Below are positions 3,633 through 58,076 of a stretch of DNA of 64,000 nucleotides, piece after piece (position 1 is the stretch's first letter; every line of letters begins with the position of its first letter). The translations under genes were made by a program, and so were the position numbers. The notes under the pieces were generated by a model, which ran no database searches, was not told the DNA's origin, and was given only the letters and a program-made list of their open reading frames with translations. This DNA is from Hyphomicrobium sp. Its GTDB lineage: Bacteria > Pseudomonadota > Alphaproteobacteria > Rhizobiales > Hyphomicrobiaceae. The stretch spans positions 1 through 64,000 of the forward strand of contig NZ_JAIETU010000006.1 of the NCBI RefSeq assembly GCF_019744875.1, in the 5' to 3' direction.

Positions 3633-5225
3633 CTAGGGAAGCGGCGCGGCTGGGGTGAAGGCCGAGCGCGGGCGATGGGGCGTCTTCTCCCAGTCATAGG
3701 GCGAGGTCGCGAGCTGGTAGAGCGCGCGATAGGCGGCGATCGAGATCATCAGCCAGTAGGCGGGCATCAGGAGCGCGGAGAGCGCCAGGCGGTAGCGGCT
3801 GCGGCCGGCTACGGCGATGGCGCCCAGGGCGACGCCGGTGACGTACCCCAGCACCAGATTGGCGAAGGCGACGACGCGCACGGCATTCGAGACCGGGCCG
3901 TGTTCAAGGATGGCCCAGGGGCCGGCGGCCGCTTCCCAGATCGCGGCGGCGTAGAACCAGGGGTGTACGAGCGTCGACAGGATCAGCCCGCCCATCAGCA
4001 CCTGAAGCCCCAGGAAGCGCAGCCATCCGAGATCGCGCGCTGTCGCGAGGGGACGGCGCATGTGGACCAGATATGTTTGCATCCATCCCTTGAGCCAGCG
4101 GGTGCGCTGGTTGCGCCAGGTGCGATAGTTCGCCGGCGCCTCCTCCCAGGTGGTCGAGTCCAGGACTTCGACGCGGTAGCCTTTGCGGGCGAGGCGAATG
4201 CCCAGATCCGCATCCTCCGTGACGTTGAACGGGTCCCAGCCGCCGACCTGTTCGAGGACGGCTCTCGAAAAATGGTTGGACGTGCCGCCGAGCGGGACGG
4301 GGAGGTTGAGGCGTTCGAGGGTCGGCAGGACGCAATCGAAGAGGGCGGTGTACTCGATCGCGAACTGGCGCGTGAGCCAGGTCTCGCCGTCGTTGATGAC
4401 GTTGAGCCGGGCCTGCAGGCAGCCGAGGCCGGGATTGGCGGCCAGCCGCGCGGCGGCGCGCCGCAACTGGTCCGGTTCGGGGATGTCCTCGGCGTCGTAG
4501 ACAACCACGAGATCGCCGGTGGCGCGGCGCAGAGCGTAGTTCAGCGCGCGCGGTTTGGTGCGAGGCTGGCCATCCGGCACGACGACCACAGAGACGTGCC
4601 CGGGGAGCGCCTGTGCTGCGACCGCCGTCCGCGTGGCGACGTCCACGTGTTCGAGAATGAGGAACACTTCCAGCCTGTCTGCCGGGTAGTCGATGCGTGC
4701 GATGGCGGCGATGAGATCGGGCACGACCGCGACTTCGTCGTAGAGCGGGATCAGAAGCGAATAGCGAGGAAGCACGGCCGGTGCTGCTGTCGGGGCAGGC
4801 TTTGCGCGATGCGCCCCTACACGGCCGAGCCGCGTGGCGGTGTGCCAGAGGGCGGCCGACTTCAAGGCGACGACGCAGAAGAACGGCACGGCAAGGATGG
4901 CCGCGAGCGCAAAAAGCGCGTGCGCGAGAGAGAGTACGGCCGTCATCATCAAAGCGACCGCGGCGCCAAACAGCGCGCGCTTCTGCCAGATCCAGGTGGG
5001 CATGCCGGCCGACAGGTCGGGCGTGGCGAGACGCAGGCTGTTGACGGCCGCATGAAGATCGCGCTTTTCGAGGCTGCCGGAGCGCTTGTGCGCGATGGAC
5101 CTCGGGATCCGCTTGCTCAGCCGCGTTTGCGGCCGAAATCTCGATTGCGGCGCAAGCAGGCCAACGTGTCCGATGCCGTGAGTACGTTGATCCACGACGG
5201 ATCGGTCCCCCCGAGCGGTGCCCAA
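3633..5225 (-). CDS. Membrane glycosyltransferase, family 2
   Basis: Transfers a sugar from a nucleotide donor to an unknown acceptor at the cytoplasmic face of the membrane. One hydrophobic hairpin (about residues 83-120 in the long numbering) precedes the GT-A domain (about 150-395). That domain has the metal-binding YDAED, the acceptor-site TEDADL and the processive-type QRTRW motif. Two or three helices follow at the C terminus. The start is uncertain: the first in-frame start is TTG at 5225, a GTG lies at 5195, and the ATG at 5003 would cut into the conserved segment (TPDLSAG) before the first helix. Donor and product are not predictable from sequence. It is divergent from the solute-binding protein gene. 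Confidence 0.85.
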   Translation of the reverse strand: MGTARGDRSVVDQRTHGIGHVGLLAPQSRFRPQTRLSKRIPRSIAHKRSGSLEKRDLHAAVNSLRLATPDLSAGMPTWIWQKRALFGAAVALMMTAVLSLAHALFALAAILAVPFFCVVALKSAALWHTATRLGRVGAHRAKPAPTAAPAVLPRYSLLIPLYDEVAVVPDLIAAIARIDYPADRLEVFLILEHVDVATRTAVAAQALPGHVSVVVVPDGQPRTKPRALNYALRRATGDLVVVYDAEDIPEPDQLRRAAARLAANPGLGCLQARLNVINDGETWLTRQFAIEYTALFDCVLPTLERLNLPVPLGGTSNHFSRAVLEQVGGWDPFNVTEDADLGIRLARKGYRVEVLDSTTWEEAPANYRTWRNQRTRWLKGWMQTYLVHMRRPLATARDLGWLRFLGLQVLMGGLILSTLVHPWFYAAAIWEAAAGPWAILEHGPVSNAVRVVAFANLVLGYVTGVALGAIAVAGRSRYRLALSALLMPAYWLMISIAAYRALYQLATSPYDWEKTPHRPRSAFTPAAPLP

Positions 5226-6450: not shown

Positions 6451-7248
6451 ATGGGGATGGACCGGACATACCGAACTCTGTTCATATCCGACGTGCATCT
6501 CGGCACGCGCTCGTCACAGGCGGATGCGCTGCTCGAGTTCCTGAAGCACACGGAAGCCGACACGATCTATCTGGTCGGCGATATCGTCGATTTCTGGCGC
6601 ATCAAGCGGGGCGCCGTATGGCCCCAGTCCCACAACGACGTGCTGCAGAAGATCCTGCGCAAGGTGCGCAAGGGTACGCGCGTGGTGTTCATTCCCGGTA
6701 ATCACGACGAGGGCATCCGCGACTACGCGGGCATGCATTTCGGCGGCATCGAGATCGAACGGCAGGCCATTCACACTATGGTCGACGGGCGGCGCTTCGT
6801 GGTGCTGCACGGTGACGAGTACGACGTGGTGGTGCGCTATGCGCGCTGGCTCGCGTTCCTCGGCGATCGCGGCTACGAGTTTGCGCTGTGGCTCAACTCG
6901 CCTCTGAACTTCGTGCGCCGTCATCTCGGCCTCGGGTTCTGGTCGCTCTCGGCTTACCTCAAGCATCGCGTCAAGACGGCCGTGAACTTCATCGGCGAGT
7001 TCGAGAAGGCGCTTGCTGAAGAGGCGCGCCGCCAGCACGTGGACGGCGTGATCTGCGGCCACATCCATCACGCGGCGAGCCGCGACATCGGCGGTATCCA
7101 CTACATCAATACCGGCGACTGGGTGGAGAGCTGCACGGCCATCGGAGAGAAAGAGAACGGCGAAATCGAGCTGATCCGCTGGCACGACGTGGTGCGCGAG
7201 CACGCCGCCGCGACGCTGGCCGGGACCGCAGCGCTCCAGGCCGCCTAA
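6451..7248 (+). CDS. Calcineurin-like metallophosphoesterase, LpxH-related
   Basis: The 265-residue protein resembles UDP-2,3-diacylglucosamine diphosphatases (COG2908), which cleave UDP-sugar lipids in lipid A synthesis. Metal-ligand motifs are in order: DVHLG (about residue 14), GDIVDFW, PGNHD, LHGDEYD and GHIHHA. A strong GGAGG precedes the ATG; a second ATG lies two codons on. Its TAA shares a base with the ATG of the next gene, so the two are translationally coupled. The coupling to a glycosyltransferase suggests an envelope glycolipid role that may differ from canonical lipid A; that is inference. Confidence 0.85.
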   Translation: MGMDRTYRTLFISDVHLGTRSSQADALLEFLKHTEADTIYLVGDIVDFWRIKRGAVWPQSHNDVLQKILRKVRKGTRVVFIPGNHDEGIRDYAGMHFGGIEIERQAIHTMVDGRRFVVLHGDEYDVVVRYARWLAFLGDRGYEFALWLNSPLNFVRRHLGLGFWSLSAYLKHRVKTAVNFIGEFEKALAEEARRQHVDGVICGHIHHAASRDIGGIHYINTGDWVESCTAIGEKENGEIELIRWHDVVREHAAATLAGTAALQAA

Positions 7249-8309
7249 TGCGTATCCTGCTGGCGACGGATGCGTGGTCGCCGCAGATCAACGGCGTCGT
7301 GCGGACCTATCAGCGACTGCAGGCCGAGCTCAAGCGTATGGGGTGCGAGCTGGCGGTGCTGGGGCCCGGAAGCTTTCGTTGCGTGCCGTGCCCGAGCTAT
7401 CCCGAAATCGGGCTGGCGCTCCCCAATCTGAAGCTGTGCGCGGACCTGATCGAGGCCGCGCAGCCGGACGCGATCCATATCGCGACCGAAGGTCCGGTCG
7501 GCTGGATGGCGCGGCGCTATTGCACGCAGCGCAGGCTTCCGTTCACGAGCAGCTTCCACACGCGATTTGCGGACTACATCAGCGCCCGGTGGCCCATTCC
7601 GGAAGCGCTGGTCTATGCGCTTCAGAGGCGCTTTCACCAGCGCAGCGCCGGCGTGATGGTGGCGACGCACAGCCTGGCGGCCGACTTGTCCGTGCGCGGC
7701 TTCCAACGCCTGATGCCCTGGACGCGCGGCGTCGACACGGAGCTTTTCAGGCCCCGCGCGGCGCGGCTGTTCGGCGATGGCCCGGTGTTTCTCTATGTCG
7801 GCCGTGTCGCGGTCGAAAAGAACATCGAAGCCTTCCTTGCCCTCGACCTGCCGGGTGTGAAGGTCGTGGTGGGCGACGGGCCGCAGCTTGGCGAGCTGCG
7901 CGCGCGCTACAGCGACGTGATTTTCACCGGTGTTCGCGAAGGCGAAGGACTTGCCGAGTGCTATGCCTCGGGAGACGTGTTCGTATTTCCGAGCCTGACC
8001 GATACCTTCGGCATGGTGATGCTGGAGGCGATGGCTTCGGGCGTGCCGATCGCGGCGTTTCCGGCCATCGGGCCGAAAGATCTTGTCACGCCCGGCGTCT
8101 CCGGCGTGCTGTCTCACGATCTCGGCGCTGCCGCGCGGAGCGCGCTCAGCCTCGATCGCGCCGCCGTGCGCGAGGCGGCCCTTGCGTTCACCTGGCAGGC
8201 GGCCGCGAAGCTTTTTCTCTCCAACATCGACAGCGCGCGCGCCAATGCGCGCGGGCGTGGCGCTCCCGCCAGCCTCGGCGTGAAACTCGCACGGCCCCGT
8301 TCAGTTTAG
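7248..8309 (+). CDS. Glycosyltransferase, family 4
   Basis: A 353-residue GT-B enzyme. The N-terminal domain starts with LATDAWSPQINGVVRT, which resembles MgtA-type alpha-mannosyltransferases and related glycolipid transferases. The C-terminal donor-binding domain contains VGRVAVEKN and the EX7E-like segment FPSLTDTFGMVMLEAMASG. The last 25 residues are Arg/Ala-rich and probably not part of the fold. Start and stop overlap by one base with the upstream phosphoesterase, so the products probably act in one pathway. Substrate unknown. Confidence 0.88.
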   Translation: MRILLATDAWSPQINGVVRTYQRLQAELKRMGCELAVLGPGSFRCVPCPSYPEIGLALPNLKLCADLIEAAQPDAIHIATEGPVGWMARRYCTQRRLPFTSSFHTRFADYISARWPIPEALVYALQRRFHQRSAGVMVATHSLAADLSVRGFQRLMPWTRGVDTELFRPRAARLFGDGPVFLYVGRVAVEKNIEAFLALDLPGVKVVVGDGPQLGELRARYSDVIFTGVREGEGLAECYASGDVFVFPSLTDTFGMVMLEAMASGVPIAAFPAIGPKDLVTPGVSGVLSHDLGAAARSALSLDRAAVREAALAFTWQAAAKLFLSNIDSARANARGRGAPASLGVKLARPRSV

Positions 8310-17314: not shown

Positions 17315-18760
17315 TCAAACCTTGCCGCGCAGGTAGCCGATTTGGCCGCCCGAGACTTCGCGCAGCTTTTCCAGATGGACCAGCATGTCGCGCGGATGAA
17401 GCGGGAAGCCCGTCATCTTGACGCTATCCTCGTCAAGGGCGGTGAGCGCGGGCATGACTTCCTCGGCCGATTTGTGGAGCATGACGATGGTGGCGACGCA
17501 GGCGCGGCTCATGTTGCGCGGCACCTTGGGCATGGCGCTTGCGATCAGCGCCTTGCTGCGGTCCGACAGATAGCTCGACAGGCGGCCGAACACGGCGATG
17601 AGCGTGACGAACAGGGTTTCCTTGAATTTGTAGCCGCGCGTTTCCATCCACTCGAAGAACTTGGTCATGACCATGTCCTGGCGGCGCAGCCCCGGCGTCA
17701 GGCGATAGTCCTGCCATTCCGCCACGAGATCGAACCGCGGGTCGAGATCGATGTCGCCGGGGGCGAACGTTTCCTTGGCGCGGACGCCGATGCTCTTGAA
17801 GAACGCCTTGTTGCGCTTATCGAAGCGCGTCTTGAACATCGGCAGCTGCAGGGCGCCGCCGGTTGCGTCGGCGTAGGCCTGCGAGACGAGCTTGGCACAG
17901 AACAGCGTGCGGCGGCCTTTGAGGCGCATCGTGAAGTCATAGGGGATGTGGCGGGCCTCGCCCGTCTTGGTGGCGTGGATGCGGTCGTAGGCGAGCTTGG
18001 CGGCGCGGGCGGCGACGGCGGGGTCTTTGGACCGGTACAGCACGGCGCGGCCAAGCCCATGGTGCAGGACGTCTTCGAGCGTGTTGATGACGGAGCCGTC
18101 CTCGATCAGCGCTTCCACGACCCAGTTCTGGCCGTTCGGATCGATGTAGATGATGGCGATGTGGCTGAACTGGCTGTCGACGTCGCCGATGCGGGCGATG
18201 GCGGCGCTGTTGTGGGCGCTGCCGCGCATGAGGAGGAGGTCGCCCGACTGGAAGGGAATGTTGCGGCCGTCGGCGTAGGCGGGGTGGACCAGAGTGTTCC
18301 AGTTCCTGCCGGAAAAGCCGCGTGCGCTCTTTTCGCCGGGAGCGAGGCGGGCGTTGCCGGAGGCGACCTCGCCCAGCATGTCGGAGGCGTTGCGGGTGAT
18401 GCGGAAGACGTTGCGGAGCGCGATCTCGGCGGGACGGGCGAGGAGGCCCGCTTCCTTCCATTCTCCGATCCGGTCGCGCATGCGCATCCGGGCTGCGAAG
18501 AGGCCGTGCATCAGGCGGGGAGCGGCCTCGGCGACTTCAGCCGGGTCGGCGTTCGCAAAGCCCGTTTCGAACAGCGCGCTGTAGAGGCCGCGAAGGCTGG
18601 TTTCCAGCTCGTGCGTGCTGACGTAGGCCTTGCCGGCCACGGCATCGAACTCTGCGAGCAGGTCATTGAATCCGGAGATGCTCGATCCGGCGACATTGGT
18701 ACGCTGCACGGCCCCTACTCCCTCCGCGCGCGGCGGTGCCGCGCGGTTACCCCCGCGCAT
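17315..18760 (-). CDS. YiiX/YebB-like papain-fold (peptidase C92) family protein
   Basis: A 481-residue protein. The central region (about 165-310) has the order expected of the permuted NlpC/P60-like C92 family: GDLLLMRGS at the start, a catalytic-type His in FSHIAIIYID, and a Cys in RTLFCAKLVSQAYADATG. N- and C-terminal helical regions of about 150 residues each are specific to this protein. No signal peptide is visible. Family members are thought to act on peptide, amide or lipid bonds; the substrate is unknown. It converges with a small membrane gene and lies beside a murein transglycosylase, which may suggest envelope work. Confidence 0.75.
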   Translation of the reverse strand: MRGGNRAAPPRAEGVGAVQRTNVAGSSISGFNDLLAEFDAVAGKAYVSTHELETSLRGLYSALFETGFANADPAEVAEAAPRLMHGLFAARMRMRDRIGEWKEAGLLARPAEIALRNVFRITRNASDMLGEVASGNARLAPGEKSARGFSGRNWNTLVHPAYADGRNIPFQSGDLLLMRGSAHNSAAIARIGDVDSQFSHIAIIYIDPNGQNWVVEALIEDGSVINTLEDVLHHGLGRAVLYRSKDPAVAARAAKLAYDRIHATKTGEARHIPYDFTMRLKGRRTLFCAKLVSQAYADATGGALQLPMFKTRFDKRNKAFFKSIGVRAKETFAPGDIDLDPRFDLVAEWQDYRLTPGLRRQDMVMTKFFEWMETRGYKFKETLFVTLIAVFGRLSSYLSDRSKALIASAMPKVPRNMSRACVATIVMLHKSAEEVMPALTALDEDSVKMTGFPLHPRDMLVHLEKLREVSGGQIGYLRGKV

Positions 18761-50313: not shown

Positions 50314-50447
50314 CTGGCGCTACGCTCACATCCCGCCCGCGCACCGGGCCGCTCGGCTTCGTCCGTTTGACCTGCTCGGCGCCGAAAATCCAAGCGCTAT
50401 TTGGTTCGTGCCGGACATTTCCGCCGGTGGACAGCGCGGTCTTGGGC

Positions 50448-51005: not shown

Positions 51006-51322
51006 GCGTGACGCGGCACACCGGCGCGCGCGACTATCGCGTCGCAAAACGGGTTCGCGGCAAAATCATTTGGGCGTCCAAAACCTGAGCTTATTCGCTC
51101 TGTTAGGCAAGGCGTTTCATATCGAATGGTAACTTGGCCCTGCCGGATTTATGGGTTTGCGGTGCATCGCTTTTCAGGCGCGGTGCAACTCTGGTACCTT
51201 CGCCCGCGAAATCGGGCGGGGGCCCCAAGAGGTTTGCGCTACAAGTCGTCGGCGCCGCCCGGCCCGTTGGGAACGGCCGCCGTTCAGGGCCATGAGCAAA
51301 GCCCGCAACTCGGAGCGTCCAG
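51006..51322. other. Intergenic region before the first MBOAT gene
   Basis: About 320 bases with no gene. The left boundary of the tandem duplication lies here: from about 51231, 'ggtttgcgctacaagtcgtc' matches 'ggtttgcgctgcaagtcgtc' at 53920. Confidence 0.5.
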
Positions 51323-52777
51323 GTGCCGTTCGTCAGCGCTGAATTCCTCATTGCGCTGCCGGTCGGGCTCGCCATCTACTATCTCATCCGGCGGGTGGCC
51401 CCCGCCGCCTCGATCCCCTTCATCATCGTCGCCAGTGTGCTGTTCATCTCGCAGGACGGCTTGCGGGCGGTCATCATTCTGGGCGTCTCGGTTGCGGCCA
51501 ACTATGCGATCGCGCTCGCGATGGTGACTTTGCGGCGGCCTTCTCTCGCCTTCTTCGGCGTTGCCGCGAACCTTCTCTACCTGGGCTATTTCAAGTATTT
51601 CGATTTCCTGCTCGGGAACGTGCTCGGCATCGCGCCGACCACAAGCATCGTTTTGCCGCTCGGCATTTCTTTCTACACGTTCCACCAGATCGCCTTCCTG
51701 GTCGATTTCAGATCGGTTCGTATCGAGGCGCTGCCGCGCTTTCGCGACTACGTGGCGTTCGTGTTTTTCTTTCCGCAGCTCATTGCCGGTCCCATCGTGC
51801 GCGCGGAGCAGTTCTTTCCGCAGCTTCCCCGTCTTGCGACCCGCGACGTGCCTCCGGCCTGGATCCTGGCGGGCACGGCCGCATTCCTGATCGGGTTGAC
51901 GAAAAAGACGGTGCTGGCCGACAGCCTGGCGCGCTATGCAACTCCGGCCTTCGAGGCGGCCGCGAGCGGGAAGGGCCTCACCATTGGCGACAGCTGGCTT
52001 GCCGCGCTGACTTATACCTTTCAGCTCTATTTCGATTTTTCGGCCTACTCCGACATGGCGGTCGGCATTGCGCTCTTGATCGGTATTCGGCTGCCGTTCA
52101 ACTTCGATGCGCCCTACAAAGCCCGCTCGATCGCGGATTTCTGGCGGCGCTGGCACATCACGCTGTCCACCTTCCTGCGCGACTATGTCTACATTCCTCT
52201 GGGCGGAAGCCGGGTTTCGGTCGCGCGCCAGTGCCTCAACATCTTCATCGTCATGCTGGTGTGCGGGCTTTGGCACGGAGCAGGGTGGACGTTTATCGCG
52301 TGGGGCGCGCTTCATGGCGGCGCCCTCGTCGTGCATCGCCTCTGGCGCGTCGCCGTCGCGGACCGCTATCCGGCCCTCGAAGCGCGGAAAGTCTATCCCG
52401 TGGCCGCGTGGTTTCTGACCTTCCTGCTCGTGGTCGTCGGCTGGGTGCTGTTCCGCGCCGAGACCTTCAGTGCGGCGGGGACGGTGCTCTCCGGGATGTC
52501 CGGCATGGCGAGTGCCGACAAGAGCATCTTCTTTGGTCGGGAGCGCAATCTGGCGATCGGGTTCATCGCGGTTGCGGCGGCGATTGCCTTCTACGCGCCG
52601 AGCTTGCCGGAGATGCTGGGCACATCCGCAACGAAGGAAAGGCGCGCGCACGAGGTCGGCCCGGAGCTTTCCTGGCAGCCGTCGGTTCCGCGCGCCATCG
52701 CGCTTGGCCTGGCTGCCTACCTATCCGTGGCGTTTCTTCAGGAGGGATACAGTGAGTTCCTCTATTTCAACTTCTGA
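51323..52777 (+). CDS. MBOAT family O-acyltransferase, left copy
   Basis: 484 residues, about ten membrane helices, opening with a GTG (MPFVSAEFLIALPVG). Family landmarks: GISFYTFHQIAFLVD, VFFFPQLIAGPIVRAEQF, YFDFSAYSDMAVGIALL, FWRRWHITLSTFLRDYVYIPLGGSR, and the catalytic-type LWHGAGWTFIAWGALHG. This is the AlgI/DltB/PatA type that brings acyl groups across the inner membrane for O-acylation of a cell-surface polymer. GGAGCGTCCAG stands before the GTG. The SGNH gene starts 26 bases before its stop. It is very similar to the right copy; about three quarters of the first hundred residues are identical by eye. Confidence 0.93.
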   Translation: MPFVSAEFLIALPVGLAIYYLIRRVAPAASIPFIIVASVLFISQDGLRAVIILGVSVAANYAIALAMVTLRRPSLAFFGVAANLLYLGYFKYFDFLLGNVLGIAPTTSIVLPLGISFYTFHQIAFLVDFRSVRIEALPRFRDYVAFVFFFPQLIAGPIVRAEQFFPQLPRLATRDVPPAWILAGTAAFLIGLTKKTVLADSLARYATPAFEAAASGKGLTIGDSWLAALTYTFQLYFDFSAYSDMAVGIALLIGIRLPFNFDAPYKARSIADFWRRWHITLSTFLRDYVYIPLGGSRVSVARQCLNIFIVMLVCGLWHGAGWTFIAWGALHGGALVVHRLWRVAVADRYPALEARKVYPVAAWFLTFLLVVVGWVLFRAETFSAAGTVLSGMSGMASADKSIFFGRERNLAIGFIAVAAAIAFYAPSLPEMLGTSATKERRAHEVGPELSWQPSVPRAIALGLAAYLSVAFLQEGYSEFLYFNF

Positions 52778-53714
52778 GGTCGCCCGCCAGCTCGGCATCA
52801 TTGCCGTGACTGCGGTGCTCGCGCTCGGCTCTACGGTGATGGCGGGGATCGGCTATTTCGATCACGTGATCGCAGGCCAGTCGCGCGTTCCGAACGTACG
52901 AACTGTGCCGGACGAATTCCGCGCGCCGATGGTTCGGGAATATATCGAGGATCGCATCCGGCCCGGCGGAAAGCCGCTGATCGTCGTGCTCGGAGATTCG
53001 CAATCGTGGGGGTTCCGGCACCGCGAGGAGCACGTTTTCACGACCCTCCTGCAGCAGCGGCTGCCCGGCTACGATGTCGTCAATCTCAGCATCGTCGATG
53101 GCCGGTTGAGCGACCAGACGATGGTTCTGGAGATGTTGAAGGCGAAGGGCATCCGGCCGCGGCTCGTCATCACGTCGGCCAACATCACCCACATCGGCAC
53201 GCCGGAACTTGCCCGGCTGGTGGCCAGCGAGCGGCCGTACTGGTCCTACTTTTTCAGCCCGATCAATGTCTATCGCATCGGGCAAACCGCACGTCTCGGC
53301 GATCGTGAGGTAAGCGAAAAGGCGTACCGGATCGTGCCGTCTCCGGATCGCTTCCTCGATTCCCCGTCCGGTCTTGAAAAGCTGTCGCAACGAACCGAGG
53401 GCGTGCTGCAACTCGCCCGATCGGTCGGAGACAGCGTGCTGTTCTATACGCCGGCTCATGCCGTGGAAGACTTCGCCAGCTATCCGTACGACCGCGCGCT
53501 GTACGACCGGCAGGTCGGGGCGCTGATGGAGACGTGCCGCAAGTCCGGGGTTCAATGCGAGGATCTTTCCGCCGCGTTTCCGCTGTCGGTGTTTCAGGAC
53601 GTCGTCCACCTGAACCGCGGAGGGCAGGTGATGCTTGCCGATAGCCTGCTCCCAAAAATCCTGGAGATCCTCGGCGGCTCAGGAGAGCGGGACACGGACG
53701 CGAAGCGCGGCTGA
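52752..53714 (+). CDS. SGNH-fold acyltransferase/esterase-like protein, left copy
   Basis: 320 residues. The GTG lies inside the MBOAT 3' end, preceded by CAGGAGGGATACA. An N-terminal membrane anchor (about 14-38) leads to a periplasmic domain. Block I is VVLGDSQSWGF with nucleophile Ser; block V-like DVVHLNRGG supplies Asp and His. This matches the periplasmic partners (AlgJ/AlgX, PatB types) of MBOAT proteins. The last about 14 residues, GGSGERDTDAKRG, have no equivalent in the right copy and are antisense to the DUF1287 relic. Confidence 0.88.
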   Translation: MSSSISTSEVARQLGIIAVTAVLALGSTVMAGIGYFDHVIAGQSRVPNVRTVPDEFRAPMVREYIEDRIRPGGKPLIVVLGDSQSWGFRHREEHVFTTLLQQRLPGYDVVNLSIVDGRLSDQTMVLEMLKAKGIRPRLVITSANITHIGTPELARLVASERPYWSYFFSPINVYRIGQTARLGDREVSEKAYRIVPSPDRFLDSPSGLEKLSQRTEGVLQLARSVGDSVLFYTPAHAVEDFASYPYDRALYDRQVGALMETCRKSGVQCEDLSAAFPLSVFQDVVHLNRGGQVMLADSLLPKILEILGGSGERDTDAKRG

Positions 53715-53870
53715 GGCCGGTACGTGACTTGCTGGTGGCAGGTTAACCGGGGGTCGCGGTCCCCATGCGCGATTGCGCACGGTCATCGGCCGGTCCGATG
53801 GTGCGATGACAGACGACAGCAGGGTGATTTGCGAGCGCGGGCCGTAGTTCCGGCGGCCGGTGCGCAGGCC
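53679..53870 (-). pseudogene. Relic of a DUF1287 gene (3' end only)
   Basis: On the minus strand the translated frame reads NYGPRSQITLLSSVIAPSDR and ends in ASAALRVRVPLS. The intact gene at 56400 has NRGSRSHIAMVSSVIAPSGR and ends in ASAALRVRFPLP. Both the nucleotide sequence and the order of motifs match, but the segment encoding EDALFVDEMTGHYRYRGARL and most of the gene upstream are missing. No start codon and no catalytic Cys region remain. It overlaps the SGNH stop by 36 bases. Confidence 0.85.
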
Positions 53871-54004
53871 CGCGCAAGTCTCGCAGGGTAGCGTGACCCC
53901 CAACAATCGAACCGATGCTGGTTTGCGCTGCAAGTCGTCAGCGTGCCCGCGGCCGATGATTGAGTTCAGCGTTCCTCGCACACCTGCAATCCGGGGACCT
54001 CCAG

Positions 54005-55459
54005 GTGCCGTTCGTCAGCGCTGCATTCCTCATCGCCCTGCCGATCGGGCTGGCCGGGTATTATCTCTGCCGGCGGTTTCTTCCTGCGGCGTCGCTGCCG
54101 TTCCTGATTGCGGCGAGCATCCTGTTCATTGCGCAGGACGGCATTCGCGCGCTCGTCATTCTCTCGATTTCGGTTCTCGCAAACTACGCCATCGCGCTCG
54201 CGATGGTGAGCTTGCGCCGGCCGTCGCTCGCCTTCGCCGGGGTCGCCGCCAACATTCTCTATCTGGGCTACTTCAAGTACTTCGATTTCATTCTGAGCGG
54301 CCTTCTTGGGGGCGGCCCTTCGACAGGCATCATCCTTCCGCTCGGGATCTCGTTCTACACCTTCCACCAGATCGCTTTCCTGCTTGACATCCGGAGCATG
54401 CGCACGCAGCAGTTGCCGCGCTTCCTCGACTACGTCGCCTTCGTGTTTTTCTTTCCGCAGCTCGTGGCGGGCCCGATCGTGCGCGCGGAGCAGTTCTTTC
54501 CGCAGTTGCCGCGTCTCAAAACCCAGCCGGTCTCTCCGACATTCATTCTGGCTGGCGCCGCAGCGCTGCTGATCGGATTGGCCAAGAAATCCGTGCTGGC
54601 CGACAATCTCGGGCTCTACGCGACGCCTGTGTTCGAAGCCGCCGCGAGCGGAAAAGCTCTCAGCGCCGGCGACAGTTGGATCGGCGCGCTGGCCTACACG
54701 TTCCAGCTCTATTTCGATTTTTCCGGCTACTCGGATATGGCGGTGGGCATCGGCCTGCTTCTCGGCATCCGGCTGCCGTTCAACTTCGATGCGCCTTACA
54801 AGGCGCGGTCGGTCGCCGAGTTCTGGCGGCGTTGGCACATCACGCTGTCGACGTTTCTGCGCGACTATCTCTACGTGCCGCTCGGCGGCAGCCGGACGTC
54901 ACTGGCCCGCCAGTGCGCCAACGTGTTCATCGTCATGATCGTTTGCGGCATCTGGCACGGCGCCGGCTTGCTGTTCATCGCGTGGGGCGCAATCCACGGT
55001 CTGGCATTGATCGTTCATCGTCTCTGGCGCGTCTTCCTGTCTAAAATGGCGATCTCGCCGGATGGATCGCTCATCTATCAGGGCACGGCGTGGGGACTGA
55101 CGTTCCTGTTTATCACGTGCGGCTGGGTGCTGTTTCGCGCCGATAGTTTCCATGCGGCGGGCCTTGTGTACTCGGGGCTGGTGTCGTTCAGCACGGCGCC
55201 CACGAGCCTCTTCACGCCTGACACCCACAACATGGCGGTGCTGCTGATCGCGCACGCCGCCGCGATCTGCGCGACGATGCCGAGCCTGCCCCAGTTGCTT
55301 GGCACGTCGGCCGAGCAGGAGCGCAGGCCCGATCGGGCGGGGCCACCGCTCGTTTGGGAACCCTCGATGCCGCGCGCCGCGGCGCTCGGTGTCAGCGCAT
55401 TCCTGTCCATCACCTTTTTGCAGGAGGGGTACAGTGCATTCCTCTATTTCAACTTCTGA
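54005..55459 (+). CDS. MBOAT family O-acyltransferase, right copy
   Basis: 484 residues, starting at a GTG at 54005 in the same context (CCAGGTGCCGTTCGTCAGCGC) as the left copy. A TTG start 45 bases upstream also exists but has no counterpart. Motifs are retained: LGISFYTFHQIAFL, FFFPQLVAGPIVRAEQFF, FWRRWHITLSTFLRDYLYVPL and IWHGAGLLFIAWGAIHG. All likely catalytic residues are kept, so both copies look functional. The SGNH partner starts 26 bases before the stop. Confidence 0.93.
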   Translation: MPFVSAAFLIALPIGLAGYYLCRRFLPAASLPFLIAASILFIAQDGIRALVILSISVLANYAIALAMVSLRRPSLAFAGVAANILYLGYFKYFDFILSGLLGGGPSTGIILPLGISFYTFHQIAFLLDIRSMRTQQLPRFLDYVAFVFFFPQLVAGPIVRAEQFFPQLPRLKTQPVSPTFILAGAAALLIGLAKKSVLADNLGLYATPVFEAAASGKALSAGDSWIGALAYTFQLYFDFSGYSDMAVGIGLLLGIRLPFNFDAPYKARSVAEFWRRWHITLSTFLRDYLYVPLGGSRTSLARQCANVFIVMIVCGIWHGAGLLFIAWGAIHGLALIVHRLWRVFLSKMAISPDGSLIYQGTAWGLTFLFITCGWVLFRADSFHAAGLVYSGLVSFSTAPTSLFTPDTHNMAVLLIAHAAAICATMPSLPQLLGTSAEQERRPDRAGPPLVWEPSMPRAAALGVSAFLSITFLQEGYSAFLYFNF

Positions 55460-56381
55460 CGCCGTCCGCCATCTGGCACTCGTGGCCGGCACGGTCTTGC
55501 TCGGGCTGTTCTGCTCCGTCGTCGCAGGTGCGATCCGTTTCGACGAGACGATGGCCGGGCATTCGCGCGTGTTCAATGTTCGCCTCGTGCCGGACAGCTA
55601 CCGGGCGCCGCTGATGGACGCGTTCATCGCGACCGCGTCGACCGCCAATTCGAAGCCGCTCATTGTCGTCCTCGGCGACTCTCAGTCCTGGGGGTTCCGC
55701 CAGCGCGAGGAGCGTGTTTTCTCCACGCTGCTGCAGAAGAAGCTCCCGCACTACAGAGTCTTGAACCTGAGCGTCGTGGACGGCCGTCTCAAGGATCAGC
55801 TCGCAATCCTGGAAATGCTCGATGCGCGGGGAATTCGCCCAAAGCTGATCCTGTCCTCGACCAACCTTGCGCACGTCAAGAATACCGAGATGCAGAGGTT
55901 GCCCAAGACCGCGCTTCCATCCTGGGCCTACTTTCTGAGCCCGCTCAATGTGGTTCGAATTGGAGAGTTCGCCCCGCCGTCCGATCGCGAGCCATCGGAA
56001 ATGGCGTACAAGCGTTTTCAGGTTCCTGACCGCTTCGTCGACTCGAAGCAGGGCCTCGAGAAATCCGCTGAGCTGCTAGAGCGGACGCTGCGGAGGGCGC
56101 GCGACATCGCCGAGCATGTTTACTTCTACATGCCGCCTCATGCCGTGGACGACTTCGCGAGCTATAACTACGACCGCGCGCTCTACGACGGCCAGGTTCG
56201 CGATCTGATCGCGGCCTGCGCGACGACTGGGGCAATCTGTGATGACCTCTCTTCGAGCCTTCCGTTGAAGGCATTCCAGGATGTCGTGCATCTCAACCGG
56301 TCAGGTCATGAGAAAATGGCAGCAGCGTTGCTGCCGTCGATCCTCAACGTGATCGAGCCGCCGCAAGTCGCGTCGCGCTGA
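55434..56381 (+). CDS. SGNH-fold acyltransferase/esterase-like protein, right copy
   Basis: 315 residues from the GTG at 55434, preceded by CAGGAGGGGTACA. It has the anchor helix (about 12-34), VVLGDSQSWGFRQREERVF and DVVHLNRSG, the same elements as the left copy. It stops 18 bases before the convergent DUF1287 gene, without the C-terminal extension of the left copy. The fixed partner gene argues that each SGNH protein serves its own MBOAT. Confidence 0.88.
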   Translation: MHSSISTSDAVRHLALVAGTVLLGLFCSVVAGAIRFDETMAGHSRVFNVRLVPDSYRAPLMDAFIATASTANSKPLIVVLGDSQSWGFRQREERVFSTLLQKKLPHYRVLNLSVVDGRLKDQLAILEMLDARGIRPKLILSSTNLAHVKNTEMQRLPKTALPSWAYFLSPLNVVRIGEFAPPSDREPSEMAYKRFQVPDRFVDSKQGLEKSAELLERTLRRARDIAEHVYFYMPPHAVDDFASYNYDRALYDGQVRDLIAACATTGAICDDLSSSLPLKAFQDVVHLNRSGHEKMAAALLPSILNVIEPPQVASR

Positions 56382-56399
56382 TCGATAGCGCAGTCGCTC

Positions 56400-58076
56400 T
56401 CAAGGGAGCGGGAAGCGGACGCGAAGTGCGGCCGAGGCGGGCTGTGCTTTGCCGGCGGCCGGACGATCGGGTGCTGCGGCCGGCAGCGTGGCGGGCAGTG
56501 CGGCGTCGCGCGTGAGGCGTGCTCCGCGATAGCGATAGTGGCCAGTCATCTCATCGACGAACAGGGCGTCTTCGAGCTGCGGGCCCCAACCGCGGTTGTG
56601 AATGATCATCGGCCGTCCCGACGGGGCGATGACCGACGAGACCATGGCGATATGCGAGCGCGAGCCGCGGTTCTGTGGCCGGTAGTACGTCACGATATCG
56701 CCCGGGCGATAGTCCTCCGGGAACGTTGAGGGGGGCAGGCTTTCGCCCTGCGTGGCGAAGAAGCGGCGCAGCACCTCGGTGCGACGATGATCGATGTTCG
56801 TGTCGCCGGAGCCCGAGCGGGCGCGATGCACGAGCGGCTGCAGATCGACGCCCAGCGAGCGATAGGCGCGCACGATGACGTCGGTGCAGACGCCGAACAG
56901 GCCGTTCACGTCGCCCATCGGATAGGAAATGCTGCGGTAGGCGTCGTTATAGATGACGAACTTTCCGACTTGCGATTGCGCGGCCTTGGCGAGCTCGACG
57001 CCGAACGCTTCGTCGCTCAGGTTGGCCGGGTCGGATGTCGAGAAGGATGCAGGGACGGCGCGGGGCACGTCGTCGGTCGTGCAGATGCCCGGGCGGATGG
57101 GGACGCCATGCTCGTCGGTGTCCATTGCCGTCATGGTGTCGACGGGGCTCGGCGGCGCATTGCGGTCGACGGCCGCAAACGGGGCAAGTAGCGCAAGAAC
57201 GGCAGGCTGCGGCTTGCTGGTGGTTCCAGGCTCCGGGATGGCCGGGATGGATCGTTCGGCGCGGCGGGAAGGGATGGCCGCGCCAAGCGGGGCTTCGGGC
57301 GCGCCCGAGAGCGCGGCATGCGGCTCGGCCAGCCGTTGCGGTGCGGCGCGCGCGGGAGCAAGGGGCGCCGCGCCACCGTTGACGGGTGCAAGCGCAATGC
57401 GCTGGGCGACGGTTTCGCGCGCGCTGGTGCGCGGCACGGTGTCGATTGCCACCCGAAGCGGCGTGGCCGGCGGCCGTACGGACGCGAGCACGGCGTCAGG
57501 CGTGCGGATGCCGGCGAGCGTCATGTAGGCGTGCAGGCTGCGCATGCTCTGATGCACGACAACGGCGGACGCGACGATCAGGAACGGCAGCACGAGCAGC
57601 GCGAACGCCTGGCGGTCGTTGTGGCCGTAAGCCTGTGCGAAGGCGCGCGCGTCGGTCCGCACGCGGTCGAGGCGCTGGCGGGGGGCTGCGGCTTCGGAAA
57701 GCCGGGCGATGTGCGTCTGCAGGGTATCCGCGCGCCGCGCAACCGACGACTTCGCGCTCGTCCAGCAGCGGTCTGCCGTGCGGTTGAGATCGTCAAAGCG
57801 CAGGGAGCCGGCCGCGCGGGCGGCCTTGCGGAGATTGTCAGCGCTTGCGCGACCCTGGGCGGCGGCGCTGCGGGTCCACGCGCGCGCCCAAGCGGTGCTG
57901 CGTGCCCAGGCCGATCCCTTTTTTCGGAAGCGGAGGGGCGAGGCTGTCTTTGCGTGCGCGTTACCGCGGGCTTTTGTCTGCGCGCTGCCGCCAGACTTTG
58001 CATGCACCTGCGACGCCACAAGCGCGCTGGCGCGGTGGGGTTTCCCCTTCGACCGTTGCTTGCGGGGCTTCTTCAC
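56400..58076 (-). CDS. DUF1287 family protein, intact copy
   Basis: 558 residues starting with a GTG at 58076. An Arg/Lys/Ala-rich cytoplasmic N terminus (about 1-150) precedes a membrane helix (about 160-178), then a long Pro/Ala linker (about 190-330). The C-terminal DUF1287 domain (about 360-515) has YPMGDVNGLFGVCTDVIVRAYRSLG, where the Cys could be a nucleophile, NIDHRRTEVLRRFF, and SHIAMVSSV with a His. The domain is related to papain-like NlpC/P60 folds. The protein is therefore likely a membrane-anchored periplasmic amidase or peptidase; the substrate is unknown. It is convergent with the MBOAT-SGNH pair. Confidence 0.85.
   Translation of the reverse strand: MKKPRKQRSKGKPHRASALVASQVHAKSGGSAQTKARGNAHAKTASPLRFRKKGSAWARSTAWARAWTRSAAAQGRASADNLRKAARAAGSLRFDDLNRTADRCWTSAKSSVARRADTLQTHIARLSEAAAPRQRLDRVRTDARAFAQAYGHNDRQAFALLVLPFLIVASAVVVHQSMRSLHAYMTLAGIRTPDAVLASVRPPATPLRVAIDTVPRTSARETVAQRIALAPVNGGAAPLAPARAAPQRLAEPHAALSGAPEAPLGAAIPSRRAERSIPAIPEPGTTSKPQPAVLALLAPFAAVDRNAPPSPVDTMTAMDTDEHGVPIRPGICTTDDVPRAVPASFSTSDPANLSDEAFGVELAKAAQSQVGKFVIYNDAYRSISYPMGDVNGLFGVCTDVIVRAYRSLGVDLQPLVHRARSGSGDTNIDHRRTEVLRRFFATQGESLPPSTFPEDYRPGDIVTYYRPQNRGSRSHIAMVSSVIAPSGRPMIIHNRGWGPQLEDALFVDEMTGHYRYRGARLTRDAALPATLPAAAPDRPAAGKAQPASAALRVRFPLP

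Follow-up and report, generated by a model that had tools for sequence, protein, structure and literature searches.

A tandem MBOAT-SGNH cassette, probably for acylation, gained beside an unrelated DUF1287 gene in Hyphomicrobium sp.

Introduction

A contig of Hyphomicrobium sp. (RefSeq assembly GCF_019744875.1, contig NZ_JAIETU010000006.1, positions 1 to 64,000 of the forward strand; this whole 64-kb stretch is referred to below as the window) carries two tandem pairs of genes, each consisting of a gene for a membrane-bound O-acyltransferase (MBOAT) and a gene for an SGNH-type protein, next to a gene for a DUF1287 protein. Overall, this is a known kind of acylation pair that was duplicated and gained beside an unrelated gene. 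We are fairly confident that an MBOAT-SGNH cassette was gained between a gene encoding a 199-amino-acid (aa) protein and the DUF1287 gene, and that it now forms two diverged tandem pairs, which are under purifying selection and would carry out acylation of the PatA/PatB type. The sequence families, the motifs, the insertion, the sister relationship of the copies and the pattern of selection are shown directly by the data. A preliminary description of the window had instead proposed a duplicated three-gene module in which DUF1287 is the third member, a proposal that the comparison with related genomes does not support.

Results and discussion

Two MBOAT-SGNH pairs in register

Both MBOAT genes, copy 1 at 51323-52777 and copy 2 at 54005-55459 on the plus strand, encode 484 aa from a GTG start in the same context, match PF03062 well above its cut-off of 27 bits (111 bits, E 8e-32, and 103 bits, E 2.5e-29), and are the sole PF03062 matches in the genome. 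The two proteins are 70% identical and both contain WHGAG at residue 317, the His of which (His318) we read, from the sequence, as the conserved MBOAT His. The extreme C-terminus of each is FLYFNF (including Tyr481), which fits the FXYXXF acyl-shuttle motif, and the same C-terminal pattern occurs in 131 of the 134 MBOATs used for tree building. On the plus strand, SGNH copy 1 (52752-53714, 320 aa) and SGNH copy 2 (55434-56381, 315 aa) encode proteins that are 55% identical and share Ser83 (in the GDS motif at 81), Asn144, and Asp283 and His286 (in the DVVH motif at 283). Each GTG start, as assigned from the sequence, lies 26 nt inside the preceding MBOAT gene and 3' of an AGGAGGG stretch; at 52752-52777 and 55434-55459, the codons for the MBOAT FLYFNF motif thus double, in another frame, as the SGNH N-terminus. 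A hydrophobic segment starts at residue 14-16 of the SGNH proteins, as judged from hydrophobicity, and a weak structure model of copy 2 places a helix at residues 7-38. This model has an SGNH-like fold and gives SGNH fold matches, DltD among them; since fold-search lists may omit families, no absence is argued from them. Families, motifs and fold matches together bear out the earlier assignment of the genes to MBOAT-SGNH acylation systems.

The sequence confirmed two 484-aa MBOAT genes with the same GTG context, each followed by an SGNH gene, with the MBOAT and SGNH copies in register at an offset of 2,682 nt. The repeat includes a 39-nt stretch 5' of each MBOAT gene (51231-51269 and 53920-53958, both plus strand), with 30 of 39 positions identical, compared to 24 of 39 at the second-best place in the window. 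In a tree of 134 MBOAT sequences, built with a quick maximum-likelihood (ML) method and supported only by Shimodaira-Hasegawa-like approximate likelihood ratio tests (SH-aLRT), the two window MBOATs are sisters (SH-aLRT 100) with a stem of 1.32 and end branches of 0.19 and 0.30. This sister grouping rules out two unrelated acquisitions and, along with the repeat 5' of each gene, upholds the shared ancestry with shared flanks that had been suggested initially.

Tandem MBOATs recur elsewhere, yet are uncommon; only 2 of 129 other MBOAT loci (defined below), L068 (7699-13511) and L077 (3155-9440), both from Campylobacterota, have two sister MBOATs on one strand, and a further locus, L052, carries two MBOATs that are not sisters. 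A literature search on MBOATs with tandem or gene duplication found no paper on such an arrangement, which is not proof of absence.

A block gained between two resident genes

In all seven congeners (G001-G007, loci L172-L178), tblastn searches recovered one and the same gene order of GluQ-RS, DUF1287, the 199-aa gene and rsmI, and neither MBOAT copy 2 nor SGNH copy 2 had a match at E 0.001 in the regions fetched from 15 relatives (the 7 congeners and 8 further genomes). A short stretch of the window, 51071-51117, located 5' of the 199-aa gene, was matched by blastn between the 199-aa gene and DUF1287 in six of the seven congeners (27-48 nt, E 2e-7 to 0.017), with no match at E 0.1 or better in the seventh (L175), and marks the left border of the junction in its ancestral form. 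The gained block thus lies within 51118-56399; these outer limits, with the left end falling somewhere in 51118-51230, enclose sequence that is without counterpart at all seven congener loci. A block of at most approx. 5.3 kb has thus been gained between two resident genes. On its right side stands the intact DUF1287 gene (56400-58076, minus strand, 558 aa; PF06940, E 5e-47), which has the same position in 7/7 congeners and is a resident neighbour. The G+C content of the block is 0.62-0.64, compared to 0.65-0.72 over most of the sequence flanking it most closely, which is at best a weak sign of foreign origin.

The interval has taken up other genes too, as congener G007 carries glycolate-oxidase-like glcD, glcE and glcF genes along with a metallophosphatase gene between its 199-aa and LppC-like genes (L178, 5770-10023). 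The LppC-like gene, which encodes a periplasmic-binding/LppC-like lipoprotein (PF13458), is found in 7/7 congeners between rsmI and the 199-aa gene, corresponding to 50314-50447 of the window; its PF04348 score is above cut-off in G007 and just below in G001. No match to it was found at the window locus or in the whole genome, in a genome search run without a positive control, and the same query matched 9 of the 15 relatives' regions (its own source included) with a different program.

DUF1287 as an older neighbour

The intact DUF1287 protein scores 160 bits against PF06940 (cut-off 25) and has one hydrophobic segment near residue 157. A Cys and two His residues are kept in 16/16 intact DUF1287 sequences; we putatively assign to them the Cys-His-His triad described in PMC10318531, and the protein is predicted to be a papain-like (NlpC/P60-type) amidase. 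The window encodes another papain-like protein of amidase type at 17315-18760 (Peptidase_C92, PF05708).

Besides the intact gene, the window contains a DUF1287 3'-end fragment at 53679-53856 on the minus strand, which corresponds approximately to the last 93 of the 558 codons and aligns with the intact gene in two ungapped blocks (35/42 and 74/95 identities) separated by a 102-nt internal deletion; second-best places for these blocks on both strands of the window reach only 27/42 and 46/95. The fragment scores 29 bits against a DUF1287 hidden Markov model built in this analysis and ends in a C-terminal tail, PASAALRVR, that it has in common with the intact gene and that occurs in none of the 15 relatives' DUF1287 proteins. 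It is without the Cys part, and both conserved His residues are replaced by Gln and Arg (SHI to SQI and IHNRGW to VRNRAW); judged by these losses, the fragment is dead. The final 11 codons of SGNH copy 1 run antisense through it; at 53679-53714, copy 1 continues past the site corresponding to the stop codon of copy 2 and terminates within the fragment, which gives it an unrelated C-terminal tail. A source was also sought for 53857-53919, between the fragment and the second repeat, and none was found. The relic DUF1287 gene noted in the preliminary description is therefore real as a fragment, whereas the claim that all genes share the same order and orientation failed, as the intact gene and the fragment are on the minus strand and convergent with the plus-strand MBOAT-SGNH pairs.

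According to the three-gene proposal, DUF1287 works with the MBOAT-SGNH pair, the whole unit was duplicated, and one DUF1287 gene later decayed. The fragment does lie in the place expected under this proposal, shares with the intact gene a tail that none of 15 relatives' DUF1287 proteins has, and exceeds the conservation expected from drift since the pairs split (77/90 identities at codon positions 1 and 2, and 17/25 at fourfold sites, compared to 103/195 and 40/94 at fourfold sites of MBOAT and SGNH), which would fit an entire gene that persisted for some time. However, DUF1287 is convergent rather than co-directional, and a profile search (E 1e-5) found DUF1287 in 0 of 129 other MBOAT loci, with flanks of up to approx. 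8 kb that were often shorter or cut by contig ends. These loci comprised 50 non-self MBOAT matches at E 1e-60, from 38 of 119 other relatives, as well as 79 loci from named genomes; an MBOAT was recognised in all 129, and the DUF1287 profile, built from 16 same-family proteins, may miss remote DUF1287 proteins. Furthermore, all seven congeners keep DUF1287 in a fetched region without an MBOAT or SGNH match, so that the conserved MBOAT-SGNH-DUF1287 linkage in relatives on which the preliminary description had staked its proposal is absent from the loci compared. The old positional partner of DUF1287 is GluQ-RS; of 24 further genomes of the family that have a DUF1287 match, 19 carry the two within approx. 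2 kb of each other on one contig (hand count), indicating that DUF1287 is an old neighbour of GluQ-RS. On the grounds of linkage (129 loci and 7 congeners) and convergent orientation, we reject DUF1287 as a third component of the cassette, and the three-gene history as a whole appears highly improbable.

Age of the pairs and origin of the tandem

An alignment of the two copies with estimation of synonymous divergence, as proposed in the preliminary description, found synonymous sites near saturation. Third codon positions are identical at 258/484 (MBOAT) and 134/302 (SGNH) codons, and fourfold sites at 103/195 (0.39 expected by chance) and 40/94 (0.34 expected by chance), respectively. The Nei-Gojobori method (NG86) gave nonsynonymous (dN) and synonymous (dS) divergences of 0.24 and 0.98 for MBOAT and of 0.39 and 1.41 for SGNH, while ML estimates of dS were 3.2 and 4.0; given near-saturation, these dS values are only rough lower bounds. 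With dN/dS near 0.25, both copies look old and constrained at the sequence level.

The fragment tells a partly different story. Relative to the intact gene, it is identical at 37/45, 40/45 and 30/45 of first, second and third codon positions, so that positions 1 and 2 together stand at 77/90 compared to the approx. 63% expected had it drifted since the MBOAT split (rough arithmetic from MBOAT fourfold sites); these identities come from alignable blocks only and are biased upward. At third positions the fragment differs from SGNH (p 0.006) and does not differ significantly from MBOAT (p 0.12). Drift over the whole time since the pairs split would have left fewer identities, and the fragment was therefore probably truncated after that split; in our own reading of the sequences, its parent gene was whole for part of this time, here or in a donor, and the duplicated unit may once have included the entire DUF1287 gene.

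Two histories of the tandem are of equal standing in our assessment. A plain tandem duplication with its right break inside DUF1287, which would have left a fragment born truncated and drifting since, offers the simplest mechanics, is consistent with in-register repeats over 2.7 kb that include the 39 nt 5' of MBOAT, and agrees with a fragment without putative catalytic residues. The excess of identities at positions 1 and 2 speaks against it, although this excess is uncertain given the comparison with MBOAT and the alignable-block bias, and we regard this history as possible but somewhat doubtful. Alternatively, the tandem may have arisen by recombination of diverged alleles, e.g., with DNA from a sister species that carried the same cassette next to a DUF1287 gene of its own, rather than by duplication within one genome, in which case the divergence of the MBOAT and SGNH copies would be species divergence and the fragment the recently orphaned tail of the donor DUF1287. 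While this would account for old pairs accompanied by a better conserved fragment, a search of 119 other relatives revealed no sister genome carrying the cassette (the best MBOAT there is 45% identical), and the tail of the fragment resembles the intact DUF1287 of the window more closely than that of any of 15 relatives; we can put forward this second history only tentatively.

Rarity of the SGNH type

With regard to a possible source, the SGNH profile matched only one further protein among the 129 other MBOAT loci, from Campylobacter portucalensis (L080; 24% identity over 267 columns). This organism was rejected as a donor, as its SGNH match is distant and its MBOAT falls among those of other Campylobacterota in the tree, away from the window copies. 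Among 396 other genomes of the order, a single SGNH match was found, which was weak and covered part of a protein (27% identity, E 5e-5), and none was found among 397 other genomes of a phylum sample that may overlap with the order sample. Plasmids yielded no SGNH match at E 1e-3 and 13 MBOAT records, every one less than 60% identical, and viral contigs yielded no SGNH relative. Among the best 80 matches kept from the named-genome scan, a set hence biased towards the best, MBOAT identity in the top-scoring segment reaches 48%. The SGNH type is thus rare in the searches made here. A rough regular-expression tally downstream of other MBOATs, used only to indicate that partners vary, found a downstream open reading frame in 109 of 132 cases, 30 of them with GDS.

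Comparison with known acylation systems and proposed mechanism

As reported in PMC12148441, PatA acetylates itself on the invariant Tyr within its C-terminal FXYXXF motif in a manner dependent on a conserved His, PatB can use an acetyl-Tyr peptide as donor, and the authors extend this route to MBOAT-SGNH pairs generally. The window pairs resemble PatA/PatB in combining an MBOAT that has a conserved His and a C-terminal FXYXXF Tyr with an SGNH partner, putatively membrane-anchored as in PatB, and appear to differ in that their SGNH proteins have only remote sequence similarity to characterised partners. Two MBOAT-SGNH sets per genome are also found in Bacillus, where PatA1/PatB1 and PatA2/PatB2 act on secondary cell wall polysaccharide (PMC9487903 and PMC7759979); as described there, PatB1 is a circular permutant carrying KDS and TDHHW motifs, whereas the window SGNH proteins are unpermuted, with GDS first and DVVH last. 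Alginate O-acetylation by AlgI/AlgJ/AlgX likewise involves an MBOAT and an SGNH-like partner, but the AlgX family is described as permuted (PMC9487903), and the window proteins that were scanned included no recognisable alginate gene next to the cassette. DltB/DltD shares the MBOAT-SGNH logic, and DltD is among the SGNH fold matches, yet the window MBOATs score 193.4 and 184 bits against the NCBIfam DltB equivalog, below its cut-off of 375, and carry the Tyr motif on the MBOAT itself.

As the window MBOATs keep both FLYFNF and WHGAG, we infer a PatA/PatB-type route; acyl transfer itself, the order of its steps and the substrate class are inferred in this way rather than shown, and so, independently of the route, is the manner in which the cassette was gained. 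The MBOAT would take an acyl group from cytoplasmic acyl-CoA via His318 and load it onto Tyr481 of its C-terminal FLYFNF motif; the predicted membrane-anchored periplasmic SGNH protein would accept the acyl group on Ser83 of the GDS motif and hand it on to a hydroxyl group of a polymer in the envelope. The two pairs may differ in acceptor. DUF1287 is an older neighbour, and its 3'-end fragment would have come to lie between the pairs in the course of the tandem rearrangement.

Several points weigh against the interpretation that we favour. Neither SGNH gene attains a Pfam cut-off, and the SGNH structure model is weak, with a mean predicted local distance difference test (pLDDT) score of 64.5 and only 3 sequences behind it. 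Dating of the pairs suffers from the near-saturation of synonymous sites described above. No polysaccharide locus was recognised beside the cassette among 35 window proteins compared to Pfam or NCBIfam, the sole exceptions among scanned proteins being single glycosyltransferases at 3633-5225 and 7248-8309. Finally, the cassette could be ancestral and lost in all congeners, which is a less simple history than gain. Predicted promoter and terminator sites occurred no more often than in shuffled sequence (1 compared to 1.1 and 6 compared to 8.0, respectively) and hence indicate nothing on transcription.

Implications

In a more far-reaching scenario, for which the lower identity between the SGNH copies (55%) than between the MBOAT copies (70%) can be cited, the two pairs have become separate acyltransferases that differ in acceptor or acyl group and modify an undescribed acylated envelope polymer through a rare SGNH type, in a lineage that has also lost the conserved LppC-like gene at this locus; this scenario seems unlikely to us. 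With two intact pairs, no other MBOAT in the genome and a rare SGNH type, the locus is a natural duplicate well suited to the question of whether acceptor choice is set by the SGNH protein rather than by the MBOAT. It also illustrates that, when judged from one sequence alone, a cassette acquired next to a gene unrelated to it can mimic a three-gene module.

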